Shown here piece by piece: positions 701 through 10,184 of a stretch of 24,626 bases of DNA. The DNA comes from a virus: positions 1 through 24,626 of IMG/VR virus record IMGVR_UViG_3300042383_000682; one strand, 5' to 3'. The position numbers and the translations under genes are program-made. Each line of letters opens with the position of its first letter. Position 1 is the first letter of the stretch. The notes beneath the pieces were generated by a model that was given only the letters and a program-made list of their open reading frames with translations, did not search any database and was not told the DNA's origin.

Positions 701-1981
701 TTAGAGGTTTCCGTAAGTTTTTCCCCAACTTGCTTTGATTGGAAACCCACCTTCTTCAATTATTTCTTTCAAACCCTTAATCAAACTCTTATCCACATTG
801 GTAGGTACATCAAATAGAAACGAGTCATAGGTATATAGGTCTAATGTAATCCCAGTCCCCTTAATAAAATCTAATATCTTTCTCATCTTTTCAACATTCA
901 CTTCCGTTTCAAATGCCTGAAGTAGATAGTTAAATACTTTTTGTGGGTTTGCTTGTTCAACCCAATCCAATGGAATTAATCGGTTTGGTGTCTTAATACA
1001 ACTACATTCAACACTCGCATCCCAAAATCGGTCTATGAAATCTGCCACCTTATCAAAGTACGGAATCTGTCTAAATTCGTCATCAATCCCACCATATAAA
1101 AGACGGAATGTTACTCCTTTAGCCTCATCAATTCCACAACCATATTGTTCAGCCAACCATTGGTGAACGTTTCCATCAGGCATAGGGTATCCTACCAATT
1201 TACCGATTAGTCTTGGGTGATATGCGTTGTAATCCATTTGTAGGAATATCCCATCAGAAACGAACACATCTCTACTACCATCGGTTTTGTTTAGGGCGGC
1301 ATAGTTCACACCGGCATGTCTATTCGAAGGTCTACCAGTTACAGTGAACGGATTGTATTCGGTGTACACTACATCACCTTTGAGATGTTTGTAGGCTTGG
1401 GGCCATCTATCAACAAATTTTTCCCTATCGACCCGAATCCCAAATCGTTCAATATCTGAAAGGGTTGGTAAGAAGGTATCGTTGTACCAATTATAAGTTT
1501 TACTCTTTTGATTTGTATGTTTAAGTAATTGTGGTTCTATTGCTTCCGCAAGTTTAAGAATAGGAATGGATTGAATGACATCTTCTCGGTAACCCCTATG
1601 AATAAGGGGAGCTACTAAGTGGTGTAGTGGTTGAGAATAGTCTATTGTTTCACCTGTCTTTAAGAAATAAGCGGTGTCAATGTCATTCAGTCCTTCCCTT
1701 AGTGTAACAAAAGATTGTAGTAGCTTTTTCTTTTGGAATACCCATTTTTCTCCGGCAGTATTCAACAGTCCCTCTATTTGCTCATTAGAGAGTGATAGAG
1801 CGTCTGTGTGTTGATGTGGTAGTATATACCTGTCCGTTAGGGTTCTTACGAATATAAACGATATAGGGGTATTACATGGGTGCTTATCATTATCTACCCA
1901 TAGTGAATACCAAATGGATGGTTCAGTTTCCAGCTTTACCTTTAATTCGTTTAATTCGTCAATAGACTCAACAATTCTCAT
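701..1981 (-). CDS. Family-A DNA polymerase-like protein, exonuclease degenerate
   Basis: 426 residues from ATG at 1981. The same frame extends upstream to 2128 but that part lies in the tmRNA and terminator, so it is excluded. Polymerase signatures are visible in order: TGRPS at 215-219 (family TGRxSS), motif A with D250 in QMDYNAYHPRLIG, motif B with K288, F292, Y296-G297 spaced exactly as K758/F762/Y766 of E. coli Pol I, and motif C with D386 in TYDSFLF. Deviations: the motif B Arg (R754 equivalent) is I284, and the motif C HDE triplet reads YDS. The N-terminal 150 residues include IDTAYFLKTGE, reminiscent of a 3'-5' exonuclease domain, but lack recognisable DxE and other catalytic acids. 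The protein is much shorter than Pol I (928) or T7 polymerase (704). It may be a specialised repair/accessory polymerase or a diverged replicative one. It probably has a leaderless or near-leaderless start from the promoter at 1987-2018. Confidence 0.8.
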   Translation of the reverse strand: MRIVESIDELNELKVKLETEPSIWYSLWVDNDKHPCNTPISFIFVRTLTDRYILPHQHTDALSLSNEQIEGLLNTAGEKWVFQKKKLLQSFVTLREGLNDIDTAYFLKTGETIDYSQPLHHLVAPLIHRGYREDVIQSIPILKLAEAIEPQLLKHTNQKSKTYNWYNDTFLPTLSDIERFGIRVDREKFVDRWPQAYKHLKGDVVYTEYNPFTVTGRPSNRHAGVNYAALNKTDGSRDVFVSDGIFLQMDYNAYHPRLIGKLVGYPMPDGNVHQWLAEQYGCGIDEAKGVTFRLLYGGIDDEFRQIPYFDKVADFIDRFWDASVECSCIKTPNRLIPLDWVEQANPQKVFNYLLQAFETEVNVEKMRKILDFIKGTGITLDLYTYDSFLFDVPTNVDKSLIKGLKEIIEEGGFPIKASWGKTYGNL

Positions 1982-1986
1982 TACCA

Positions 1987-2018
1987 CAAATATACAAAAA
2001 AAATCCCAAACTACCAAA
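1987..2018 (-). promoter_or_regulatory. Bacteroidota-type promoter for the polymerase gene
   Basis: On the minus strand, TTTG (2018-2015), a 20-base spacer and TATATTTG (1994-1987) match the Bacteroidota consensus TTTG ... TAnnTTTG. Placing the -7 box conventionally puts the start of transcription about 2 bases before the ATG at 1981, so the message would be almost leaderless. The -33 TTTG sits in the loop of the tmRNA terminator, so the two signals are interleaved. Spacing is identical to the tmRNA promoter. Confidence 0.5.
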
Positions 2019-2034
2019 TAATAGTTCGGGATTT
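2001..2034 (-). terminator. Intrinsic terminator of the tmRNA gene
   Basis: Minus strand: arm AAATCCCGAACTA (2034-2022), 8-base loop, arm TAGTTTGGGATTT (2013-2001). This gives a 13-bp stem with one G-T pair, followed by a run of T (2003-1996). It starts 3 bases after the encoded CCA end of the tmRNA. Confidence 0.85.
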
Positions 2035-2036
2035 TG

Positions 2037-2426
2037 TGGTGGAGATGACCGGACTCGAACCGGTGTCTTACGAAGTAACCACAATACCAGCTTTTCACAC
2101 GTTTAGGATAAGGTTTAATCTTATTCACCTTCCAAAATAATTGGGGCCGAATGGTTAGTTCAGCGCTACCACCAACAGGTCCGGATTTTAAGAGGCGATC
2201 TGTAATCCTCTCTTTTGTTCACTTCTATTTAAATTCCACGAGTGATGCGGAAGGGATTAGGCTGCTACAGCGTAATCAGCACCTACGAATGCCATAACGT
2301 CATCGAAGGTCCAAGTAGATAATTCTACGTCATTTATTGTTTGATTCCGAGATTTAAGTGGTTTGAGAACCTTCCCACTACGTGTGATACTATGTTTCGC
2401 ATCGCAATCAATTCCAAAACATCCCC
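2037..2426 (-). ncRNA. ssrA: Transfer-messenger RNA (tmRNA)
   Basis: A 390-nt tmRNA that rescues stalled ribosomes and tags the unfinished protein for proteolysis. The 5' end GGGGATG (2426-2420) pairs with CATCTCC (2047-2041) in a 7-bp acceptor stem with one G-U; discriminator A2040 and an encoded CCA (2039-2037) follow. The T arm is perfect: ACCGG, loop TTCGAGT, CCGGT. The 5' domain has TTTTGGAATTGAT, close to the canonical TTCTGGATTCGAC. TCACAC near the 5' side can pair with GTGTGA near the 3' side as helix P2. The tag frame ends YAVAA-TAA in the middle of the molecule, as expected for a one-piece tmRNA. A 61-aa open frame over this region is only the tag frame read upstream by chance. Own promoter at 2440-2471 and own terminator at 2001-2034. 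Full-length and with intact ends, so it is a functional gene rather than an integration-site remnant. Confidence 0.95.
2257..2283 (-). other. tmRNA tag reading frame (GADYAVAA, stop)
   Basis: The resume codon is most likely GGT at 2283-2281, giving Gly-Ala-Asp-Tyr-Ala-Val-Ala-Ala followed by TAA (2259-2257). Known Bacteroidota tags start with Gly (for example GE-N-NYALAA types), which supports this start. The last residues AVAA replace the usual ALAA. The exact resume codon is inferred; one codon earlier would add Val. Confidence 0.75.
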
Positions 2427-2439
2427 ATATCAATAAATA

Positions 2440-2471
2440 CAAATATAAGAAAAAATATTTAGATTTCCAAA
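2440..2471 (-). promoter_or_regulatory. Bacteroidota-type promoter of the tmRNA gene
   Basis: Minus strand TTTG (2471-2468), 20-base spacer, TATATTTG (2447-2440). It matches the Bacteroidota sigma-70 consensus. Transcription would start near 2436, leaving roughly 10 bases for RNase P to trim before the mature 5' end at 2426. The -33 box and most of the spacer overlap the last codons of the oxygenase gene. A phage-type GTATTTATT motif also lies at 2432-2440 between this promoter and the tmRNA. Confidence 0.65.
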
Positions 2472-3166
2472 TTAAAATTAATTACACATCGGTGTTTTTT
2501 ACCATAAAAAGGTTTTACCGAATGAACTATATCATTTGGCCATAACATTAACATTCCTTGTTTAGGTCTTACAAAATGTGACATACCTCTTAGGTGAAAA
2601 CAAAATGCTCCGCTGTATGGGTGGTCTTTTAGCGGTTCACCATCACTTAGATAATATCCACCACTAAACCCAACTTTAGGTTCTTCATCGGATTTCCAAC
2701 GGCAGTGATTATGTTGGTTGTGTCCCCTACCCTCATATGGGTCATAATATTGTATCCAACTTTCGGTTATTTTACATTGATGATTGTGCGGTATTTCCAG
2801 AGAATCTAAAAGTTCAAAAAAACTATCTTCAATTCTTTTTCTGATTATTTTTACACCTTCGTTTTCATCATCCAAAAAATTATTTGGTGGTGTATGAAAT
2901 CTACTACCTATTGGATTAAATTCAGTATCTTCAACCCACATATCACTATTATCGTTTGTTTCATATGTTGCCTGCCTTTGTTCATCATATCTTTCAGGCA
3001 ATTCCTGCCCCATTTTCTTTTCTGTTTTGTTTAATTTATTATAACCATAAACATAGACCGAATCATGCAATTGTTTATCATCGTATTCTTTACGAAGAAC
3101 TGGAATAGGAGCTAGATAATAAAGATTATCTTTGTCCGATTTAATTAGTGGTTGTTTGAAGTTCAT
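2459..3166 (-). CDS. 2OG-Fe(II) oxygenase-like protein
   Basis: 235 residues. The C-terminal half fits the phage-common 2-oxoglutarate/Fe(II) dioxygenase family (PF13759 type): a histidine cluster HNQHNH at 149-154 where the first iron ligands are expected, FSGGYYLSDGEP at 167-178 (family SGvYYl), GMLMLWPNDIVHSV with the distal His215, and R226 in HRCVINFN as the 2-oxoglutarate anchor. A clear HxD is not visible at the first site; an HxH-type arrangement or another acid may serve. The N-terminal third is not recognised. It overlaps the upstream glycosyltransferase by 26 bases and is the last gene of the decoration module, so it probably hydroxylates a sugar or protein side chain made or modified by its neighbours; the substrate is unknown. 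Confidence 0.75.
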   Translation of the reverse strand: MNFKQPLIKSDKDNLYYLAPIPVLRKEYDDKQLHDSVYVYGYNKLNKTEKKMGQELPERYDEQRQATYETNDNSDMWVEDTEFNPIGSRFHTPPNNFLDDENEGVKIIRKRIEDSFFELLDSLEIPHNHQCKITESWIQYYDPYEGRGHNQHNHCRWKSDEEPKVGFSGGYYLSDGEPLKDHPYSGAFCFHLRGMSHFVRPKQGMLMLWPNDIVHSVKPFYGKKHRCVINFNLEI

Positions 3167-3935
3167 GATATAAATAAATTTCTTTTTTTACTCGTTCACC
3201 AACATATTGGTTTATCGTTTTGAAAGCCCAATCCATATTTGGTAAGTTCACATCTTTTTCTTTTCCTCTTATTACAAATGGTTCATACTTTAATACATAT
3301 TCCTCTAGTGAACAATTTGAAAATAACCACATAGCAAATTCTTCAATACAAGTATCTAAATTATTGTCAACCATTAGTTTATGTAACTCGGATGCTGAAT
3401 TAGTTTTGTTTGAATAAAAGAAACAAAAGTTTGGTAAAACATATAAATCATCTGTTTGCCAACTGTATTTTTTTAGTCCCTCTATATGATACTTTAAAAA
3501 TTCATCTATGTGATTTGTAAGAGTTCCTCTTTGTTTGTAGTATTCTAAAATATCATTTCTATAATTTTTGTTATAGGCATATATTGGACATTGTATATTA
3601 TTTCCACTTCGTATTAATTGCCAAAAATTATTATCAATGTTTTTAACAACACCAACATCCCAATCTAAAAAAAGGTATTCATCAAACATTTCCTCAGCCA
3701 TCTTTATTACTTCCAATTTATGACCATAATGTTTTAAATGATTATCATATACATTTTCCAAAGTTTCATCATAGCCAATAAGTTTAGTTTGGTATCCTAA
3801 ATTTTTTAGAAATTGTTCATTTTTAATTCCATATACAAAAACTAATTCATCTTTGAATATAGGTGATTTAGGAATTTCTTTATGAATAGCAAAATTCTTG
3901 CCCCAAAGTGCTCGTATAACTTTAATTGGTTTCAT
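3141..3935 (-). CDS. GT-A-like glycosyltransferase, paralogue of the gene at 7646
   Basis: 264 residues. A Rossmann-like start (residues 3-50, with VFVYGI and LKNLGY) is followed by EYLFLDWDVG with D91-W-D93, the metal/nucleotide-sugar DxD motif of GT-A enzymes. VLPNFCFFYSNK around 165-176 resembles the acceptor-side strand of these enzymes. The protein shares its plan and several motifs with the 254-aa protein at 7646-8410 (VFVxGxxN, LGY, FLDWDV, IPNxxFFY, KEIYxxH), so the two are paralogues. Family numbering cannot be assigned by eye. It overlaps both neighbours by 14-26 bases. Predicted role: adding a sugar during phage glycan synthesis, in the cytoplasm. Confidence 0.7.
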   Translation of the reverse strand: MKPIKVIRALWGKNFAIHKEIPKSPIFKDELVFVYGIKNEQFLKNLGYQTKLIGYDETLENVYDNHLKHYGHKLEVIKMAEEMFDEYLFLDWDVGVVKNIDNNFWQLIRSGNNIQCPIYAYNKNYRNDILEYYKQRGTLTNHIDEFLKYHIEGLKKYSWQTDDLYVLPNFCFFYSNKTNSASELHKLMVDNNLDTCIEEFAMWLFSNCSLEEYVLKYEPFVIRGKEKDVNLPNMDWAFKTINQYVGERVKKEIYLYHELQTTTN

Positions 3936-4626
3936 CTATTTTTTTTATTATATTTTCAAATATACCATAATGGCCGTTTTCATCGGGATGGCTATCATAT
4001 GGAACTTCATTTGGTCTACTATCTCCTAATGTAAATTTATTTTCAACACCCCAATCTAAAATAGAATTATTATTTTTATTTTTTTTAATAGGAAAAACAA
4101 TTTTATTTGGATTTTTATATTTTTCAAATCCATCATCTAAAAATAATAAACAATAGTTTACACCAACTTTATTTTTTAAAAATTCTAAAGTATTTACAAC
4201 TCTGTTAAATTTGTGAAATTTAGTATGACATACCCAACCATCCATATAATCCAATAATATTTCCAATTGCTTATCCGATACTTTATATGTAGTTCTTCCC
4301 TTACCCCATCTATCCAATATCCAAGCAAATCTTTTTAAATCTTTAGTTAATGCTGCTGTTGTGAAATATAGTGAATCGTCATTCACCATATATCCTTCTC
4401 TATCCGATGATGTAAATTGATAAACAATCAAATCATCTTTTTCAAAATTTTTTAAATCATTTGTTAATCGTAAATAAGCTTCATTATGGCATGTTGCAGA
4501 ATCTGCTCTATTAATATATTCAACATTAAAATGTTTTGATAATAAATTTGGGTAAATGTTTTCTTCACCTATCCAAAAGTTTACAGAAAAAGAACAACCA
4601 TATATGTAAATTTTATTTACATTCAT
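3922..4626 (-). CDS. SGNH/GDSL-like hydrolase (copy 1 of a tandem pair)
   Basis: 234 residues, no signal peptide. YGCSFS near the start (S12 the candidate nucleophile in G-C-S-F-S) and D211-S-H213-P-xE near the end match blocks I and V of SGNH hydrolases (Ser and Asp-x-x-His region). Between them lie QFTSSDREGY and a conserved NTLEFLKNK...VNYxLLFLDD segment. The next gene encodes a protein of exactly the same length with the same motifs, so they are tandem duplicates. Such enzymes remove or transfer O-acyl groups, here plausibly acetyl groups on sugars. Start and end overlap the neighbours by 14 bases each. Confidence 0.7.
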   Translation of the reverse strand: MNVNKIYIYGCSFSVNFWIGEENIYPNLLSKHFNVEYINRADSATCHNEAYLRLTNDLKNFEKDDLIVYQFTSSDREGYMVNDDSLYFTTAALTKDLKRFAWILDRWGKGRTTYKVSDKQLEILLDYMDGWVCHTKFHKFNRVVNTLEFLKNKVGVNYCLLFLDDGFEKYKNPNKIVFPIKKNKNNNSILDWGVENKFTLGDSRPNEVPYDSHPDENGHYGIFENIIKKIDETN

Positions 4627-5317
4627 TTTTTATAAATTTTAAAATTTTAGAAGCTATATGGTATTGAGCTTTTTCGTTTGGGTGAGTATCCCATTTAGGT
4701 CTAATTGGATTTGAATCTGCTATTGTTAAATTATTCATAACTACCCAATCTCTTATAGATACACTTTTTGAATTTGTTTCTATTGGAAATTCTATATAAT
4801 TGTTTGTGCAAAATTTTTGAAAATAATTATCTAAAAACAACATAACATAGTTTACATTATATTTTTCTTTTAAAAATTCCAAAGTATTGTGTACAATATT
4901 ATATTTGTAAAATAGAGAATGCTTTTCCCAAACATTATTATAATCCAATAATTTAATTAAATCAGAATCAGATATTTCATACTTTTCTCTACCAACTCCC
5001 CACTCATTTAAAACTAAAGTATTCATATCTATATCTTCTGTTAATAAAGATGTTGTTATATATAAAGAATCGTTATTTACCCAATAACCACCTCTATCTA
5101 ATGCTGTAAATTGGTATATAATAAAATCCCCTTCATTAAATAATTCAAAATCTTTAGTAAGTCTATGATATATTTCGTTATTACATATTGCCGGCTCGGC
5201 TCTTCTTATGTAATCACATCGCAATTGTTTGGAAACTAAAGCTGTATAAGTTTGTTCTTCATTAATCCACCAATCAGATGAAAACGAGCAACCATATGTA
5301 TATAACTTATTTATCAT
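4613..5317 (-). CDS. SGNH/GDSL-like hydrolase (copy 2 of a tandem pair)
   Basis: 234 residues, paralogue of the gene just downstream. Motifs: YGCSFS with candidate nucleophile S11, ICNNEIYHRLTKD, QFTALDRGGY, NTLEFLKEKYNVNY and D210-T-H212-PNE at the C-terminus. Motif spacing is nearly the same in both copies, but the surrounding sequence has diverged well beyond recent duplication, so each copy may act on a different substrate. Both proteins are predicted to be cytoplasmic. The gene starts 2 bases after the stop of the 37-aa microgene at 5319-5432. Confidence 0.7.
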   Translation of the reverse strand: MINKLYTYGCSFSSDWWINEEQTYTALVSKQLRCDYIRRAEPAICNNEIYHRLTKDFELFNEGDFIIYQFTALDRGGYWVNNDSLYITTSLLTEDIDMNTLVLNEWGVGREKYEISDSDLIKLLDYNNVWEKHSLFYKYNIVHNTLEFLKEKYNVNYVMLFLDNYFQKFCTNNYIEFPIETNSKSVSIRDWVVMNNLTIADSNPIRPKWDTHPNEKAQYHIASKILKFIKNECK

Positions 5318-5435: not shown

Positions 5436-7118
5436 TTAATGTTTATATATAATAAAATTTCCAATAATTAACAAATCAATATCACTGTTTAAATATGAAT
5501 CTACTGCGTTTTTTGGTGTCAAAACCATAGGTCTATCTTTTGTATTAAATGATGTATTTAAAAGAATAGGATGATTCGATAATATTTCAAATTCTAATAA
5601 TAGTTTGTGAAACAATGTATTTTTATTTACACTTTGTATTCTAGCTGTTCCATCTACATTTGATACTTCTTTTAAAAGTTTTTTATATTTTCTTTTAACA
5701 TTAACAATTTTATTCATATATGGTACATCACCAATTGTATTAAAATATTCATTTTGTTTTTCTACAATTACTGCAGGTGCCAATGGTCTAAAATTTTCTC
5801 TTTGTTTTATAATATTATTTATTTTATCTTTTACACCATTTATAAAAGGATTTGCCAATATTGAACGATTTCCCAATGCTCTTTGTCCAAATTCATTGTG
5901 TCCGTGATACCACCCAATTATCTTACCTTCCCATAATAATTTTGCAACAACCTTTAACATTTTTTCTTCAGATGTAAATTGTTTGTATTTCAGTTTTCCT
6001 ATTGCTTCGATTACATTATTATACAAATACGAAGGACCTAAAAATGGGTTTGGTGTTATTTTATATACTTTATTTTTAGAAGCCAAATAATTTAAACAAG
6101 CTCCAACACAAGAACCAGCATCGGATGGTGCTACTGGTATCCACAATTTTTTGTATTTTGTTCTTTTTAAAATTTTTCCATTTGCCAAACCATTGTATGC
6201 ACAACCACCCCCTAATATTAAGTTTTTTATTTCATATTTTTTGTACAAATCATTAAGAATTTTAATTAATATGTTTTCATAGTTTAGTTGTACAGCTGCA
6301 GCCAAATCTTTATGAATTTGAACTATTGGTAAATTTGTATCTTTGGGTTCTATTTCCAACAATTCGCATAACTTAACATTAAACATTGAAGAATCTTCTC
6401 TATCCCAACAAAAAACTTTCATATTGCATTTTAATGTACCATTTTCATAAGATATTAATTTTTTTACTTTATCCATATAAACATTTGGATTACCATAAGC
6501 TGCCAATCCCATTACCTTATACTCACCTTCATTTGGTTTGAATCCTAAAAATGCAGTCATCGCTGAATAAAATAAACCCAACGAATGTGGATACTCTGCA
6601 ATTGTGTTTTTTTCAGGGACACCATTTTCTATTGTACAAAAAGTTGTTGTATCAAATTCACCAACACCATCTACACTTAAACCTATCGCATTATCAAAAT
6701 TTGAAGTATAATAAGAATAAAATAGATGGGAATTATGATGGTCTGAATAAAATACGTTTTTAGATACTAATTCTAAATTGTTTTTACAAGTTATCATTTT
6801 TATTTTAAAGCCGATTATAGACTTTACACAATACCAAAAACTTCTATACCAATTATTTTTAAAATTTTGAATTAATCTTTTGTATTTAAGTTTTGGGTCT
6901 TCATAATAACACACTACGTCAATATCTTTTTTTGATAATTTATATGTTTTAAAAATATATCGTATTGAATTAAATGGAAATGAACTATCATGCTTTTTGC
7001 CTGTAAATTTTTCTTCTTCGCAGGCAAATATTAATTCGCCATTTTTAAACAGGCATGCAGATGAGTCGTGATAATAAGCCGATACTCCAATTATATAACT
7101 ATTTTTTTTGGTATCCAT
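5436..7118 (-). CDS. O-carbamoyltransferase (NodU/CmcH/TobZ family)
   Basis: 560 residues, full length for the family. The N-terminal Kae1-like domain shows GVSAYYHDSSACL (11-23), ACEEEKFTGKKHDSSFP (32-48), DHHNSH (126-131), LSVDGVGE (147-154), SLGLFYSAMTAFLGF (179-193), EYKVMGLAAYG (199-209) and GGGCAYNG (303-310). The C-terminal YrdC-like domain has GWYHGHNEFGQRALGNRSIL (402-421), NFRPLAP (442-448) and LLNTSFN (519-525). The family makes carbamoyl-AMP from carbamoyl phosphate and ATP and moves the carbamoyl group to a hydroxyl of a sugar, antibiotic or, in some phages, hydroxymethylated base. Glycosyltransferase neighbours favour a sugar target. All key motifs look intact. Confidence 0.9.
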   Translation of the reverse strand: MDTKKNSYIIGVSAYYHDSSACLFKNGELIFACEEEKFTGKKHDSSFPFNSIRYIFKTYKLSKKDIDVVCYYEDPKLKYKRLIQNFKNNWYRSFWYCVKSIIGFKIKMITCKNNLELVSKNVFYSDHHNSHLFYSYYTSNFDNAIGLSVDGVGEFDTTTFCTIENGVPEKNTIAEYPHSLGLFYSAMTAFLGFKPNEGEYKVMGLAAYGNPNVYMDKVKKLISYENGTLKCNMKVFCWDREDSSMFNVKLCELLEIEPKDTNLPIVQIHKDLAAAVQLNYENILIKILNDLYKKYEIKNLILGGGCAYNGLANGKILKRTKYKKLWIPVAPSDAGSCVGACLNYLASKNKVYKITPNPFLGPSYLYNNVIEAIGKLKYKQFTSEEKMLKVVAKLLWEGKIIGWYHGHNEFGQRALGNRSILANPFINGVKDKINNIIKQRENFRPLAPAVIVEKQNEYFNTIGDVPYMNKIVNVKRKYKKLLKEVSNVDGTARIQSVNKNTLFHKLLLEFEILSNHPILLNTSFNTKDRPMVLTPKNAVDSYLNSDIDLLIIGNFIIYKH

Positions 7119-7659
7119 TTGGTGCTATGTTTGAAACAAATTTATTGGTTTGTACAAATACAGGTTCATCTACAAATTTAAAATTAAGATGATTAATTTT
7201 TGCTAACTCCCAATCATATGCCTGAGTAATTTTCGTTTTGGAAAAATGTTCTAATATACTTTCTGCTCCTTTATAAGAAACAAAATAAGCATAACATCCA
7301 AATTTTGTTCCTAAACTAAATAAATCAAACTCATCGAAATTTATAGAATTCCAATCAAATGAGTTTACAATATCTATATCATCCTCAATAACCAATAAAT
7401 TTGTTTTAGATTTTACTGCCATATTAAGTAAACTAATATGACTCATAAAAGTTGCCATCACTGCTTTATCATCAATATTCCATTCGTGAAAATCGGTATG
7501 TGAAAAATATGCATTTTTTATAACTTCAGTAATATCTTCGGAAGTTACCGCATTAAAAAAATCAAAATTCAATCCTATCTTATCTTTTATTGATAGCATC
7601 CAATCTCTACGTTCTTTATCCCTTCTTAATGATATTACATATGTTTTAAAGATGTTCAA
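7099..7659 (-). CDS. GT25-family glycosyltransferase
   Basis: 186 residues. The start TYVISLRRDKERRDWM matches the GT25 (LPS glycosyltransferase) N-terminus, followed by FDFFNAVT (32-39), AVMATFMSHISLL (66-78; family gcxlSH) and LLVIEDDIDI with E92-D93-D94, the DxD-like motif. GCYAYFVSYKGAESIL around 125-140 is the family GxxaYlis motif. It is slightly short for GT25. There is no ATG at the right place: the frame opens with TTG at 7659-7657 inside the end of the upstream gene, and the first internal ATG (residue 21) would remove the first strand, so TTG is the probable start. It overlaps the carbamoyltransferase by 20 bases. Confidence 0.8.
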   Translation of the reverse strand: MNIFKTYVISLRRDKERRDWMLSIKDKIGLNFDFFNAVTSEDITEVIKNAYFSHTDFHEWNIDDKAVMATFMSHISLLNMAVKSKTNLLVIEDDIDIVNSFDWNSINFDEFDLFSLGTKFGCYAYFVSYKGAESILEHFSKTKITQAYDWELAKINHLNFKFVDEPVFVQTNKFVSNIAPNGYQKK

Positions 7660-8410
7660 AATATATTTCTTTTTTTAATGTTTTTAATTTATACTTTTCT
7701 AAATCATTTTCTTCTTCGTTCCACCAATCATAACCATGTTGTTTTGCGCCAATAACTAATGGTTCATAGTTTTTTATGTAACTATCAAAATCTGCATTTG
7801 AAAATATAAATACTGATAATTCATCTGGAACAGTTTGTAATTTATACTCATCTATTATTTCTAATAAATCTTCTACTATTGTTTTATCGGCACAATAAAA
7901 AAATCCGGTGTTTGGTATTATATAATTACCCTCTTTTGTGTAGGAGTATTTTTCTATAAACAATTTTAGTTTTTTAAAAAACTTTTGCATTAAATCATCT
8001 TTAATATTATTCAATAAATAATCAAATGCTTTGGTTGGATAGGTGTATAATGGAACTTGTAAATCACATTCTCTATCTCTTAGTAATTTATAAAAGTTAT
8101 CATCAATTTCTTTTATCTTTCTAACATCCCAATCTAAAAAAACAATTTCGGAATATGTTTCCATTGCTATATCAATTCCTTTTATTTTGTGAATCAAACT
8201 TCTATGATGTTTAAACGTATGTGCATTAGCTATTGTATAATCGTATGGTTGCATATCTATCAAATCACAATTGTATCCCAACTCTTTTAGCTTAACATAG
8301 TTATCGTATCCCCATACAAATACCTTTTCATCTAAATTATCTTTTTTAGCTTCAATAATTTGTTTTTCGTATCTATTATAATCTCCCCAAAATATTCTTA
8401 TAAACTGCAT
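7646..8410 (-). CDS. GT-A-like glycosyltransferase, paralogue of the gene at 3141
   Basis: 254 residues. The order of motifs is IRIFWGDYNRY (4-14), VFVWGYDNY, LKELGYNCDLI, EIVFLDWDVRKI with D93-W-D95, QVPLYTYPTKAFDYL, IPNTGFFYCADK and a C-terminal KEIYFEHL. The same order is seen in the 264-aa protein at 3141-3935, so both belong to one uncharacterised GT-A-like group. D93/D95 are the expected metal and nucleotide-sugar ligands. There is no signal peptide or membrane segment. It overlaps the neighbours by 13-14 bases. Donor and acceptor sugars cannot be told from the sequence. Confidence 0.7.
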   Translation of the reverse strand: MQFIRIFWGDYNRYEKQIIEAKKDNLDEKVFVWGYDNYVKLKELGYNCDLIDMQPYDYTIANAHTFKHHRSLIHKIKGIDIAMETYSEIVFLDWDVRKIKEIDDNFYKLLRDRECDLQVPLYTYPTKAFDYLLNNIKDDLMQKFFKKLKLFIEKYSYTKEGNYIIPNTGFFYCADKTIVEDLLEIIDEYKLQTVPDELSVFIFSNADFDSYIKNYEPLVIGAKQHGYDWWNEEENDLEKYKLKTLKKEIYFEHL

Positions 8411-9327
8411 AACATTTTTATTTCTTTATTATAACGATTACAATACTCTAACATCATTTCTTTATCATCGTTAAAATGTGCTTTTAAATACCAAAGATGC
8501 TCCCAACTAAATTTATCTACATTATCCGTGTCAATAAATTGAAACCAAGGTTCTGACATTCCTTTGTATCTTTGTGTTGAATCGGTGTGGTCACTATCAC
8601 TTAAAAATACTCTATTTGTAATTGTACCCACATTGTAGTTACCTTCTCTTATACAATGTCCTAATATACCTTGGTCTGTCATTAACCAAAACCATTCAGG
8701 AACTTCAACCCCTTTATTATCAACCAATTTAGAATGTGCATTAACATATTCTTTAACCAAATTCAAATTATTAAAATACATAAATGATGTATTTGGCGTT
8801 AATGAGTTACAATTATAGTTTTCAGGAAAGCGGCAATGTTTAATTTCTTTCTGAAATTGGTATTTGGTAAAATAATAATATCCTCTTGGTATTTCCCAAT
8901 ATCCTATTATTAAGTCAAATTGTTTTAATCTATATTCATTTATTTTTTCCCTTACAATAAAATCATTATCTATAAAAACAAATGGCTCAGTTTCATATTG
9001 TAAACAATTTATTTTACCACTTGTCCAAAAATATGCAGCATCTACATCATTGTAATTATCTAATATATCAGTATCAACTTCATCATAAAGTTCTAACAAA
9101 CCAATCGCATCATAATATGCTTTACCAATACTATCGGTGTACAATTTTATAGGCCCATTCCACTTTTTCCAATTTAATATTGAAAGTTTAGTAACTAATA
9201 TTTGATAAGTTGGTAATGAATACTCTTTTGATTTGTTGTTTTTAAAAACTTTAAATCCATGTCCTCGTAACCTATCTTTTTCAAAAAATGGTTTAGTCCA
9301 ATTTATATGTATTGCTTTTATTGACAT
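8398..9327 (-). CDS. Putative glycosyltransferase with DND motif (pair member 1)
   Basis: 309 residues. TYQILVTKLSILNWKKW (40-56), KLYTDSIGKAYY (61-72), AAYFWTSGKINCLQ (97-110) and PFVFIDNDFIV with D120-N-D122 recall GT-A enzymes that read a sugar nucleotide through DxD. NTSFMYFNN near 190 and a Trp/Phe-rich C-terminal half complete the picture. The next gene upstream (9318-10184) has the same motif order, with DMD in place of DND, so the two are paralogues. Similar Bacteroidota proteins exist as uncharacterised families; the enzymatic role is inferred. It overlaps the upstream gene by 10 bases. Confidence 0.6.
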   Translation of the reverse strand: MSIKAIHINWTKPFFEKDRLRGHGFKVFKNNKSKEYSLPTYQILVTKLSILNWKKWNGPIKLYTDSIGKAYYDAIGLLELYDEVDTDILDNYNDVDAAYFWTSGKINCLQYETEPFVFIDNDFIVREKINEYRLKQFDLIIGYWEIPRGYYYFTKYQFQKEIKHCRFPENYNCNSLTPNTSFMYFNNLNLVKEYVNAHSKLVDNKGVEVPEWFWLMTDQGILGHCIREGNYNVGTITNRVFLSDSDHTDSTQRYKGMSEPWFQFIDTDNVDKFSWEHLWYLKAHFNDDKEMMLEYCNRYNKEIKMLCSL

Positions 9328-10184
9328 AGTTTATGTAACAATGGAAGTAATTCTGGATTATGTTGTTTTGTTAATCCTATTATTTCACCTTTTATAATTA
9401 AAAATTTGTTAGTTCCTTCTGTTGCATACATTTTCTCAACACTTAAATGTCTATAATATTCTTCTGTTTGTTTTGGACTTAAAAATCCCTCTATTATTTC
9501 TGGGTCACATTTTCCCGTAACATCGTTAAACTTTTGATTCATTAACAAATTCCAATTCCAATTATTTACCAATGCTAACTCATATAATATTGTTTGTTCC
9601 AAAAATACACTATGCCCTTGTGTTAATTCTTTATCATTAATTTGCTTCATATATGAAAGACACATATCCGTATATTTTTTTGCAACATCCGAATTTCTTA
9701 CATAAAAAAAGCATGTGTTATGTGCCGTATCTTTAAATGTAAACTCTTTTGGAAAATTTAATTCTTTAAAAGTCTTATCGTAATATGGTGGATAGTAATT
9801 TTTTGTGTTTTCTGCAAAAGCACAAACATAATCATAATTAGTATAGTCCGATAATCTTTTTTTAATGTAGAAATCCATATCCATAAAAGTAAATGGAGTT
9901 TCTAAATGTTGAAACAATCGTATTTTATCAATTGTCCAAAAAGCTTTACGATTATAAATGTCTTGGGTTTGGTGAATGGATGTATCTACGTTATCCCAAA
10001 ATTGAAGTAAATCAACTTCGGTAAGATATTTTTTTACCGATTCATCACAATACAAATAGGTTGGAACTTCTGGGTAGAATTTTTTCCACAAAGTAATTGA
10101 TGCAAATACAGTTATAAGTTCTAACTTTGAAAATTTAAAAGATTTGGTCCAATCATTATTTCCATACGCCCATACAGCTTTCAT
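9318..10184 (-). CDS. Putative glycosyltransferase with DMD motif (pair member 2)
   Basis: 288 residues. Motif order matches its neighbour at 8398-9327: LELITVFASITLWKKFY (21-37), TYLYCDESVKKY (42-53), KAFWTIDKIRLFQ (80-92), PFTFMDMDFYI with D102-M-D104 and HNTCFFYVRN. These are typical of a GT-A nucleotide-sugar-binding half. It is the first gene of the decoration module and starts 15 bases after the stop of the 142-aa structural-type gene, with only a TATAAATA-like element (10191-10198) in between. The module is therefore probably read through from the tail operon. Confidence 0.6.
   Translation of the reverse strand: MKAVWAYGNNDWTKSFKFSKLELITVFASITLWKKFYPEVPTYLYCDESVKKYLTEVDLLQFWDNVDTSIHQTQDIYNRKAFWTIDKIRLFQHLETPFTFMDMDFYIKKRLSDYTNYDYVCAFAENTKNYYPPYYDKTFKELNFPKEFTFKDTAHNTCFFYVRNSDVAKKYTDMCLSYMKQINDKELTQGHSVFLEQTILYELALVNNWNWNLLMNQKFNDVTGKCDPEIIEGFLSPKQTEEYYRHLSVEKMYATEGTNKFLIIKGEIIGLTKQHNPELLPLLHKLCQ

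Follow-up and report, generated by a model that had tools for sequence, protein, structure and literature searches.

Phage-encoded tmRNAs have been described before. A tmRNA was found in 402 of 18,146 phage genomes (PMC9004378), a list of phage tmRNAs is available (PMC4131195), and tmRNAs have been reported in huge phages (PMC7162821) and in Cellulophaga phage Calle (PMC8776804). The commonest tag length in a 2025 tmRNA database, the viruses of which were taken from RefSeq, is 10 amino acids, and the passages of the database paper accessible to us contain no mention of long phage tags (PMC11915505). Titles, abstract openings and passages of the open-licence literature also gave no description of an extended, conserved phage tag. 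The tag module described here bears on the reason for which large phages carry a tmRNA.

Results

Identity and structure of the tmRNA

The window, i.e. the whole stretch of DNA that was analysed, is a complete IMG/VR virus record of 24,626 bases. ARAGORN found a single tmRNA in it, and the Rfam model RF00023 matched the same 390 nucleotides with a score of 76.1 bits (gathering score, 47; E 3.3e-28), in an alignment that spans model positions 1-374, i.e. the full model. The original prediction of a complete tmRNA with paired acceptor ends, an encoded CCA and a perfect T arm was therefore borne out by the Rfam search that it had proposed; the gene lies on the minus strand, which had been left unstated. 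In the acceptor, the third pair is G.U, and the T stem forms five of five pairs.

2037-2426, minus strand: one-piece tmRNA (ssrA), 390 nt, called by ARAGORN and RF00023, with 172 complete relatives (110 distinct)
2420-2426, minus strand: 5' strand of the acceptor, GGGGATG; all 172 complete relatives have G.U as the third pair
2037-2047, minus strand: 3' strand of the acceptor, CATCTCC, with ACCA, from the RF00023 match; 99 of 172 relatives encode the ACCA
2048-2064, minus strand: T arm, ACCGG TTCGAGT CCGGT, from RF00023 and the 30-sequence alignment
2402-2407, minus strand: 5' strand of P2, pairing with 2068-2073
2068-2073, minus strand: 3' strand of P2, pairing with 2402-2407
2255-2277, minus strand: hairpin H5, covering the end of the tag frame, paired in 99.6% of cells
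2343-2379, minus strand: pseudoknot PK1, AGTGG/CCACT and GGTTCT/GGAATC, as drawn in the window; stem 1 has varying arms in relatives

The relatives were recognized with a regular expression for the tag and the T loop, which matched 181 of 200 loci; the 19 misses included L033, which has a substitution, and several loci in which the region reached the locus end. From the 181 loci, 172 complete tmRNAs were recovered and nine failed. The loci are redundant and related, and the scans share contigs, so that the statistical tests given below overstate independence. Covariation was assessed with 30 sequences of less than 82% identity, namely the window and 29 of the other 39 representatives. Two-sided changes, indicating covariation, were present in four of seven pairs of P1, six of six of P2 and four of five of the T stem. 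P1, P2, the T stem and H5 were paired in 95-100% of the cells, and one pair of H5 switched between U-A and A-U in 14 of the 30 sequences. The covariation score of all 32 pairs (including those of a hairpin in the tag extension, see below) was 0.415, versus 0.135 in shuffles.

The pseudoknots gave a less uniform picture. A script found stem 1 of PK1 perfectly paired, with differing arms, in 85 of the 110 distinct relatives, the window's type being among its 25 misses and some of the arm pairs being alternative pickings. The shuffle test was modest, shuffles being beaten in 16 of 40 representatives. In the PK2-PK4 region, nucleotide identity in the linker was 0.31, and several consensus pairs were missing in the Rfam alignment. 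Thus, of the fold expected by the prediction, P2 is supported by covariation, and PK1 could be drawn in the window with this modest statistical backing. Taken together, these sequence comparisons confirm that the window encodes a real, complete one-piece tmRNA.

Phage origin and genomic context

The neighbouring DNA polymerase gene (701-1981) was used as a query, and the best 80 of 105 viral loci were taken. The closest locus, in a 136-kb virus contig, contained an identical 390-nt tmRNA, and 18 of 18 flanking 500-base pieces were identical as well. A tag with the extension described below was found beside the polymerase in 73 of the 80 loci with the regular expression, or 74 when L033 (one substitution) was included. 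In five of the six loci without a tmRNA, the sequence is cut off no more than 630 bases upstream of the polymerase; the sixth (L036) comprises 10 kb upstream of the polymerase, yet no tmRNA was found in it. A tmRNA was thus present in 74 of the 75 loci not cut off upstream, among the best 80 of 105, and its end was separated from the polymerase by 50-58 bases in 51 of 72 loci. The identical 136-kb contig and the syntenic relatives (74/80) rule out a piece of host chromosome or a chimera, which the original prediction had named as an assembly error to be considered. The prediction had also described phage tmRNAs as uncommon; in the present phage group the gene is nearly universal.

The transcription signals and the adjacent genes were as follows.

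2440-2471, minus strand: promoter-like site TTTG-N20-TATATTTG, upstream of the tmRNA
2000-2035, minus strand: intrinsic terminator, 16 pairs followed by a T run, directly after the tmRNA
1987-2018, minus strand: second promoter-like site, preceding the polymerase gene
701-1981, minus strand: DNA polymerase (phrog_17, E 1e-10), 426 amino acids, the usual downstream neighbour
2459-3166, minus strand: 2OG-Fe(II) oxygenase, the upstream neighbour of the tmRNA

The promoter and terminator assigned to the tmRNA by the prediction could both be located. The site upstream of the gene has what we take to be the Bacteroidota promoter form. Its strict -7 box (TANNTTTG) was present upstream in 32 of the 110 distinct relatives versus 3.6% in shuffles, and a relaxed box in 81 of 110 versus 62%; across the window, four sites with the promoter pattern were found versus 2.9 expected, i.e. 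no enrichment.

We also noted several features of the surrounding genes. The short polymerase matches phrog_17 positions 959-1235 of 1445 and may be one of the halves of a split polymerase. A DNA/RNA non-specific endonuclease (PF01223; 54-728) with a signal-like N terminus is encoded two genes downstream of the tmRNA. Further upstream, beyond the oxygenase, are glycosyl- and carbamoyltransferase genes; the carbamoyltransferase and glycosyltransferase-like genes at 5436-10184 are likely a glycan-decoration cluster between the tail genes and the tmRNA. Overlapping tandem genes (3922-4626 and 4613-5317) encode 234-residue proteins that look paralogous and both start with a YGCSFS motif; neither had a Pfam match.

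The prediction's assignment to the myophages is supported, the phage being T4-like. The other half of that assignment, a Bacteroidota-type phage, is likely, not proven: it is suggested by kinship with Flavobacterium phage immuto, by the promoter form and by the small number of genes (3 of 21) that have a Shine-Dalgarno-like leader, while the tail sheath is equally near a Microcystis phage (Mel-JY01, 49.4% identity over 99%, versus 48.7% over 63% for immuto). Of 22 tag-bearing records, 19 encode a homolog of the window's tail sheath, with identities between 100% and 28% (the lowest value covering some 200 residues), indicating that the tag extension spans diverged myophages, by descent or by transfer.

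The tag frame and its extension

The tag read by ARAGORN comprises 24 residues (DVELSTWTFDDVMAFVGADYAVAA), and, counted from a GNN resume codon, tags of 23-26 residues were found in all 110 distinct relatives. In some relatives ARAGORN misreads the tag (e.g. as VNKPEHYLSAP), and these tags were re-read by script.

2257-2331, minus strand: tag frame, from the resume codon GAC to the stop TAA, encoding DVELSTWTFDDVMAFVGADYAVAA
2281-2319, minus strand: tag extension, STWTFDDVMAFVG, with the consensus S-[TS]-x-T-F-[ED]-D-x-M-x-F-[VI]-G
2260-2280, minus strand: degron-like C-terminal end ADYAVAA, similar in sequence to the Bacteroidota ends NYALAA and SYAMAA

CAATAA stood two bases before the resume codon (CAATAAnn directly adjoining it) in 90 of the 110 distinct relatives. 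The GNN resume codon in 110 of 110 is no test, because the regular expression allowed GNN starts only. As a comparison, which the prediction had called for, we sampled 61 Bacteroidota genomes, 60 of which had a tmRNA above the cut-off; 31 were read (the 30 best-scoring and L210). Their tags had 9-10 residues (e.g. GENNYALAA and ANDYSYAMAA) in 30 of the 31 ARAGORN calls, and one call looks wrong. The tag of the window, with 24 residues, is not a short tag of this host type. It reads as a host-like end to which some 14-15 residues have been added, so that its length is more than double the usual one and includes an additional conserved module. The prediction had missed this; among the three roles that it had suggested for the gene, the evidence points to a tagging of proteins that differs from the host's.

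Selection on the extension

In 39 of the 40 representatives, nucleotide identity was 0.77 in the extension (36 bases), as compared with 0.53 in the 5' part, 0.31 in the linker and 0.63 in the last 95 nt. For the extension of these 39 sequences, pS was 0.496 and pN 0.163. Because 33 of them had been fetched with a tag-end pattern, which leaves the extension free and fixes the last eight residues, nothing was drawn from the conservation of those residues. A pattern-free set was available in the 46 distinct tmRNAs retrieved through the polymerase alone, which contained 20 distinct extensions and 11 distinct ends. In this set, pS and pN were 0.447 and 0.192 for the extension and 0.435 and 0.186 for the last seven codons, suggesting that the extension and the tag end are under similar protein-level selection, the extension not being the more constrained. 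Variation in the extension was concentrated in third codon positions (site permutation, p=0.0009), and its amino acid differences were conservative (mean BLOSUM62 score, 0.67, versus -0.18 for random changes). By these comparisons the extension is selected as a protein.

At the level of the RNA, part of the extension can form a hairpin (CCTTCGA..TTCGTNGG), which pairs in 96% of the cells of the 30-sequence alignment, and the synonymous codons of the extension are partly conserved too. A double-sided change was seen in only one of the five hairpin pairs (4 of 30 sequences).

Occurrence of the extension

A scan for the DNA encoding the tag end (GADYAVAA followed by a stop) gave at least 120 matches, and the extension was present in all 120 listed. 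A scan for the extension only also gave at least 120 matches, of which 62 were loci new to the analysis. Fifty-eight of these could be read to a stop, which lay 9, 10 or 14 residues past the motif (47, 10 and 1 loci, respectively), and all 58 tags ended in A. None ended in GADYAVAA, because most loci of that kind had been collected earlier; the alternative ends included ADGEFAMAA, AEGELEMAA, SSEELVLA and MGEAVNAEYAYAA. A tmRNA was confirmed in 56 of the 62 loci, 50 having a paired acceptor and T arm by script and six more exceeding the RF00023 cut-off. Among the others, L394 is cut off (46.9 bits), and L384, L403, L423 and L439 end within 62 bases. These readings indicate that the extension is kept where the tag end differs. 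In the remaining locus, L410, the motif is followed by a stop (2095-2127, STMTFDDLMAFVGADEATFA) and Rfam gave no tmRNA match; this may be a decayed or much diverged copy.

The extension DNA pattern was found in none of 395 Bacteroidota genomes, and a GTDB scan for the tag end gave two matches, neither in a tmRNA. The tag had no tblastn match in plasmids, its DNA gave only blastn matches with E>=3 in phages, and tblastn of the tag against 50,697 INPHARED records, with so short a query and no positive control, returned nothing. Given this result, and given that the tmRNA database mentioned above took its viruses from RefSeq, uncultivated phages may be where the tag family resides.

In 13 of 13 tag-bearing virus records the motif occurred once, as the tag itself, so that mimicry of a phage protein was rejected. 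The tag matched no Pfam family, and its best PHROG (E 0.22) and PDB (E 0.013) matches were at chance level; the latter, a designed-looking protein without a significant single domain, was discarded as a known motif. An amphipathic helix in the extension was likewise rejected, since hydrophobic moments did not exceed those of shuffles. We also looked for partner proteins in 14 virus records (11 of them tag-bearing), which may be fragments. Neither SmpB nor Lon was found in any of the 14, and ClpP-like proteins were present in four (two of the 11 tag-bearing). With no SmpB in these records, host SmpB would be needed.

Other long tags in phage tmRNAs

A tag-blind scan on the tRNA-like domain yielded 79 new loci, of which at least eight lay on contigs represented before. 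From these loci 69 tags were called, 53 of them with 20 or more residues under a heuristic biased towards longer frames. ARAGORN agreed with 21 of the 53 tags, called a different or a shorter tag for 13 and reported no tmRNA for 19; L473 is doubtful. The families were STxTFED with its diverged VELSEYTIDSLL forms (19, plus L504), GNTNFWSLVN (9), RQEEGAxIINMAF/RVAEGDAILASIF (8, plus L448 and L482), YNSEDMMSI (5) and LDTMxTLGLI (2). A scan for GNTNFWSLVN gave 48 matches, comprising 44 tags (38 with a paired acceptor and T arm) and four ordinary reading frames; one for EGAxIINMAF gave 11 matches, all tag-like and six with paired arms. The excess of pS over pN in these two families says little, because the patterns fix much of the sequence. 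When ten loci were checked with Rfam, the tmRNA cut-off was exceeded by L452, L472, L488, L508 and L574, while L503, L567, L570, L573 and L575 fell below it, some having an interrupted T loop. In L575, a group I intron (RF00028; 3033-3307, minus strand) lies just downstream of the tag, apparently in the T loop, and L570 and L573 also seem to have an interrupted T loop.

A generic scan for tmRNA 5' ends gave at least 120 loci, and 98 tmRNAs were identified in the 120 listed. Eighty-four of their tags had at most 16 residues, and the STxTFED module was absent from the 14 longer ones. A recurrent long family, AANNIVAFSR (e.g. ANTSDTAANNIVAFSRSTVAA), was observed in this set. Phage LR756508.1 (484 kb) has both a full tmRNA and a domain-only one. 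The former (L207 1501-1947; LR756508.1 92434-92880) has a likely frame, chosen by hand and differing from that of ARAGORN, for a 32-residue tag (ADYESAGFTAEDFAQMDGESLYHGSERKPAAV); the latter (L209 1501-1612; LR756508.1 414804-414915) is 112 nt long, consists of the tRNA-like domain only (RF00023, 58.2 bits) and resembles the inhibitory DS6A form.

Discussion

The most probable reading, to which we assign a probability of about 0.55, is that the locus encodes a functional one-piece phage tmRNA that would work with host SmpB and add a bipartite tag, made of a phage-specific recognition module and a degron ending in A. The conservation of the RNA, the alanine-type acceptor, the tag frame and the protein-level selection on the extension are established by comparison of the relatives; from these we infer expression in infection, charging, use of host SmpB, proteolysis and a reader for the extension. 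During infection, the tmRNA would be transcribed from its own promoter and, through its G.U acceptor pair, charged with alanine. Host SmpB and EF-Tu would then bring it to stalled ribosomes, where the tag frame would be translated. Whether a rescued chain came from phage mRNA or from host mRNA that had been cut or was decaying, it would receive the 24-residue bipartite tag. The host-like end of this tag, in AA, would be recognized in the ClpXP manner, and the extension would be recognized in addition, most likely by an AAA+ protease or an adaptor of the host. Such a reader is favoured because the degron is kept and because the lengthened tag of Mesoplasma is read by Lon. Chains with the phage tag would thereby be routed or degraded otherwise than those with the 9-10-residue host tag.

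The main rival, which we consider unlikely, is that the extension is a working peptide that locates the tagged chains or binds or inhibits a host factor, the degron clearing this effector afterwards. Retention of the extension where the degron differs would fit, as would its absence from the 395 Bacteroidota genomes; so would the conserved extensions of several unrelated kinds that other phage tmRNAs carry, which could correspond to lineage-specific targets. Neither a target nor a known motif emerged from Pfam, PHROG, PDB or the virus records, however, and the final A in all 58 differing tags read to a stop suggests that the degron is needed; moreover, in the set fetched without tag patterns the extension and the degron were equally constrained.

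A rather improbable reading is that the tmRNA is of the ordinary phage type and the long tag simply an unstructured leader to host-like ClpXP degradation, the tag sequence being of little consequence. Phage tmRNAs are indeed known, as noted above, and other phage tmRNAs have long tags of differing sequence, as though length counted. Purifying selection on the extension argues against such indifference to sequence, as does the persistence of the same motif in records with tail sheaths as little as 28% identical. We regard it as quite improbable that the RNA is what matters in the extension, which would then act as a hairpin or spacing element within the coding loop and encode an irrelevant peptide. 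The frequent pairing of the hairpin and the partial conservation of synonymous codons would be accounted for, but double-sided changes are limited to one of five pairs, and the third-position periodicity and conservative replacements point to the peptide. Action as a decoy, by titration of SmpB or by blocking the host's trans-translation, is very improbable: the lack of SmpB in the 14 virus records and the tRNA-like-domain-only RNA of mycobacteriophage DS6A (PMC4131195, PMC11915505) could be cited for it, but a tag under protein-level selection would be superfluous in a decoy.

Returning to the bipartite tag, the module is selected, common to diverged phages, kept with differing degrons and not seen in the 395 genomes of the likely host phylum, which suggests that the tag itself matters to the phage, beyond ribosome release. 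Tentatively, and with odds somewhat short of even, this may be extended to other lineages: phages would have repeatedly rebuilt the tmRNA tag as a bipartite one, with lineage-specific modules added to the chains rescued in infection, making trans-translation a phage-controlled routing or effector system. The candidate modules are S-T-x-T-F-E-D-x-M-x-F, G-N-T-N-F-W-S-L-V-N, R-Q-E-E-G-A-x-I-I-N-M-A-F, Y-N-S-E-D-M-M-S-I and others. A role of the present tag module, if confirmed, would mean that viruses have rewritten a quality-control signal nearly universal in bacteria, and it might provide a natural degron for Bacteroidota. The 13-residue extension is a peptide with which a partner could be fished out.

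Comparison with known systems

The RNA encoded by the window shares with the ssrA of Bacteroidota (RF00023) the one-piece architecture, the acceptor and a tag ending in AA, and differs from it by a tag of 23-26 rather than 9-10 residues, containing the S-T-x-T-F-E/D-D module. Like mycobacteriophages, Bacillus phage G, Melnitz, the huge phages and Cellulophaga phage Calle, this phage belongs to the tailed phages with a tmRNA gene; the tmRNA of Melnitz is reported to be two-piece, whereas the present one is one-piece. The RNA of mycobacteriophage DS6A is also phage-encoded and tmRNA-like, but is described as comprising the tRNA-like domain only, without a tag; the RNA of the window, in contrast, has an mRNA-like part, with a tag frame that is under selection. 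A lengthened tag read by another protease, Lon, has been described for the SsrA of Mesoplasma florum (PMC9382460). That tag is cellular and ends in NYAFA, while the tag of the window ends in DYAVAA, and the likeness between the two is one of length, not of compared sequence.
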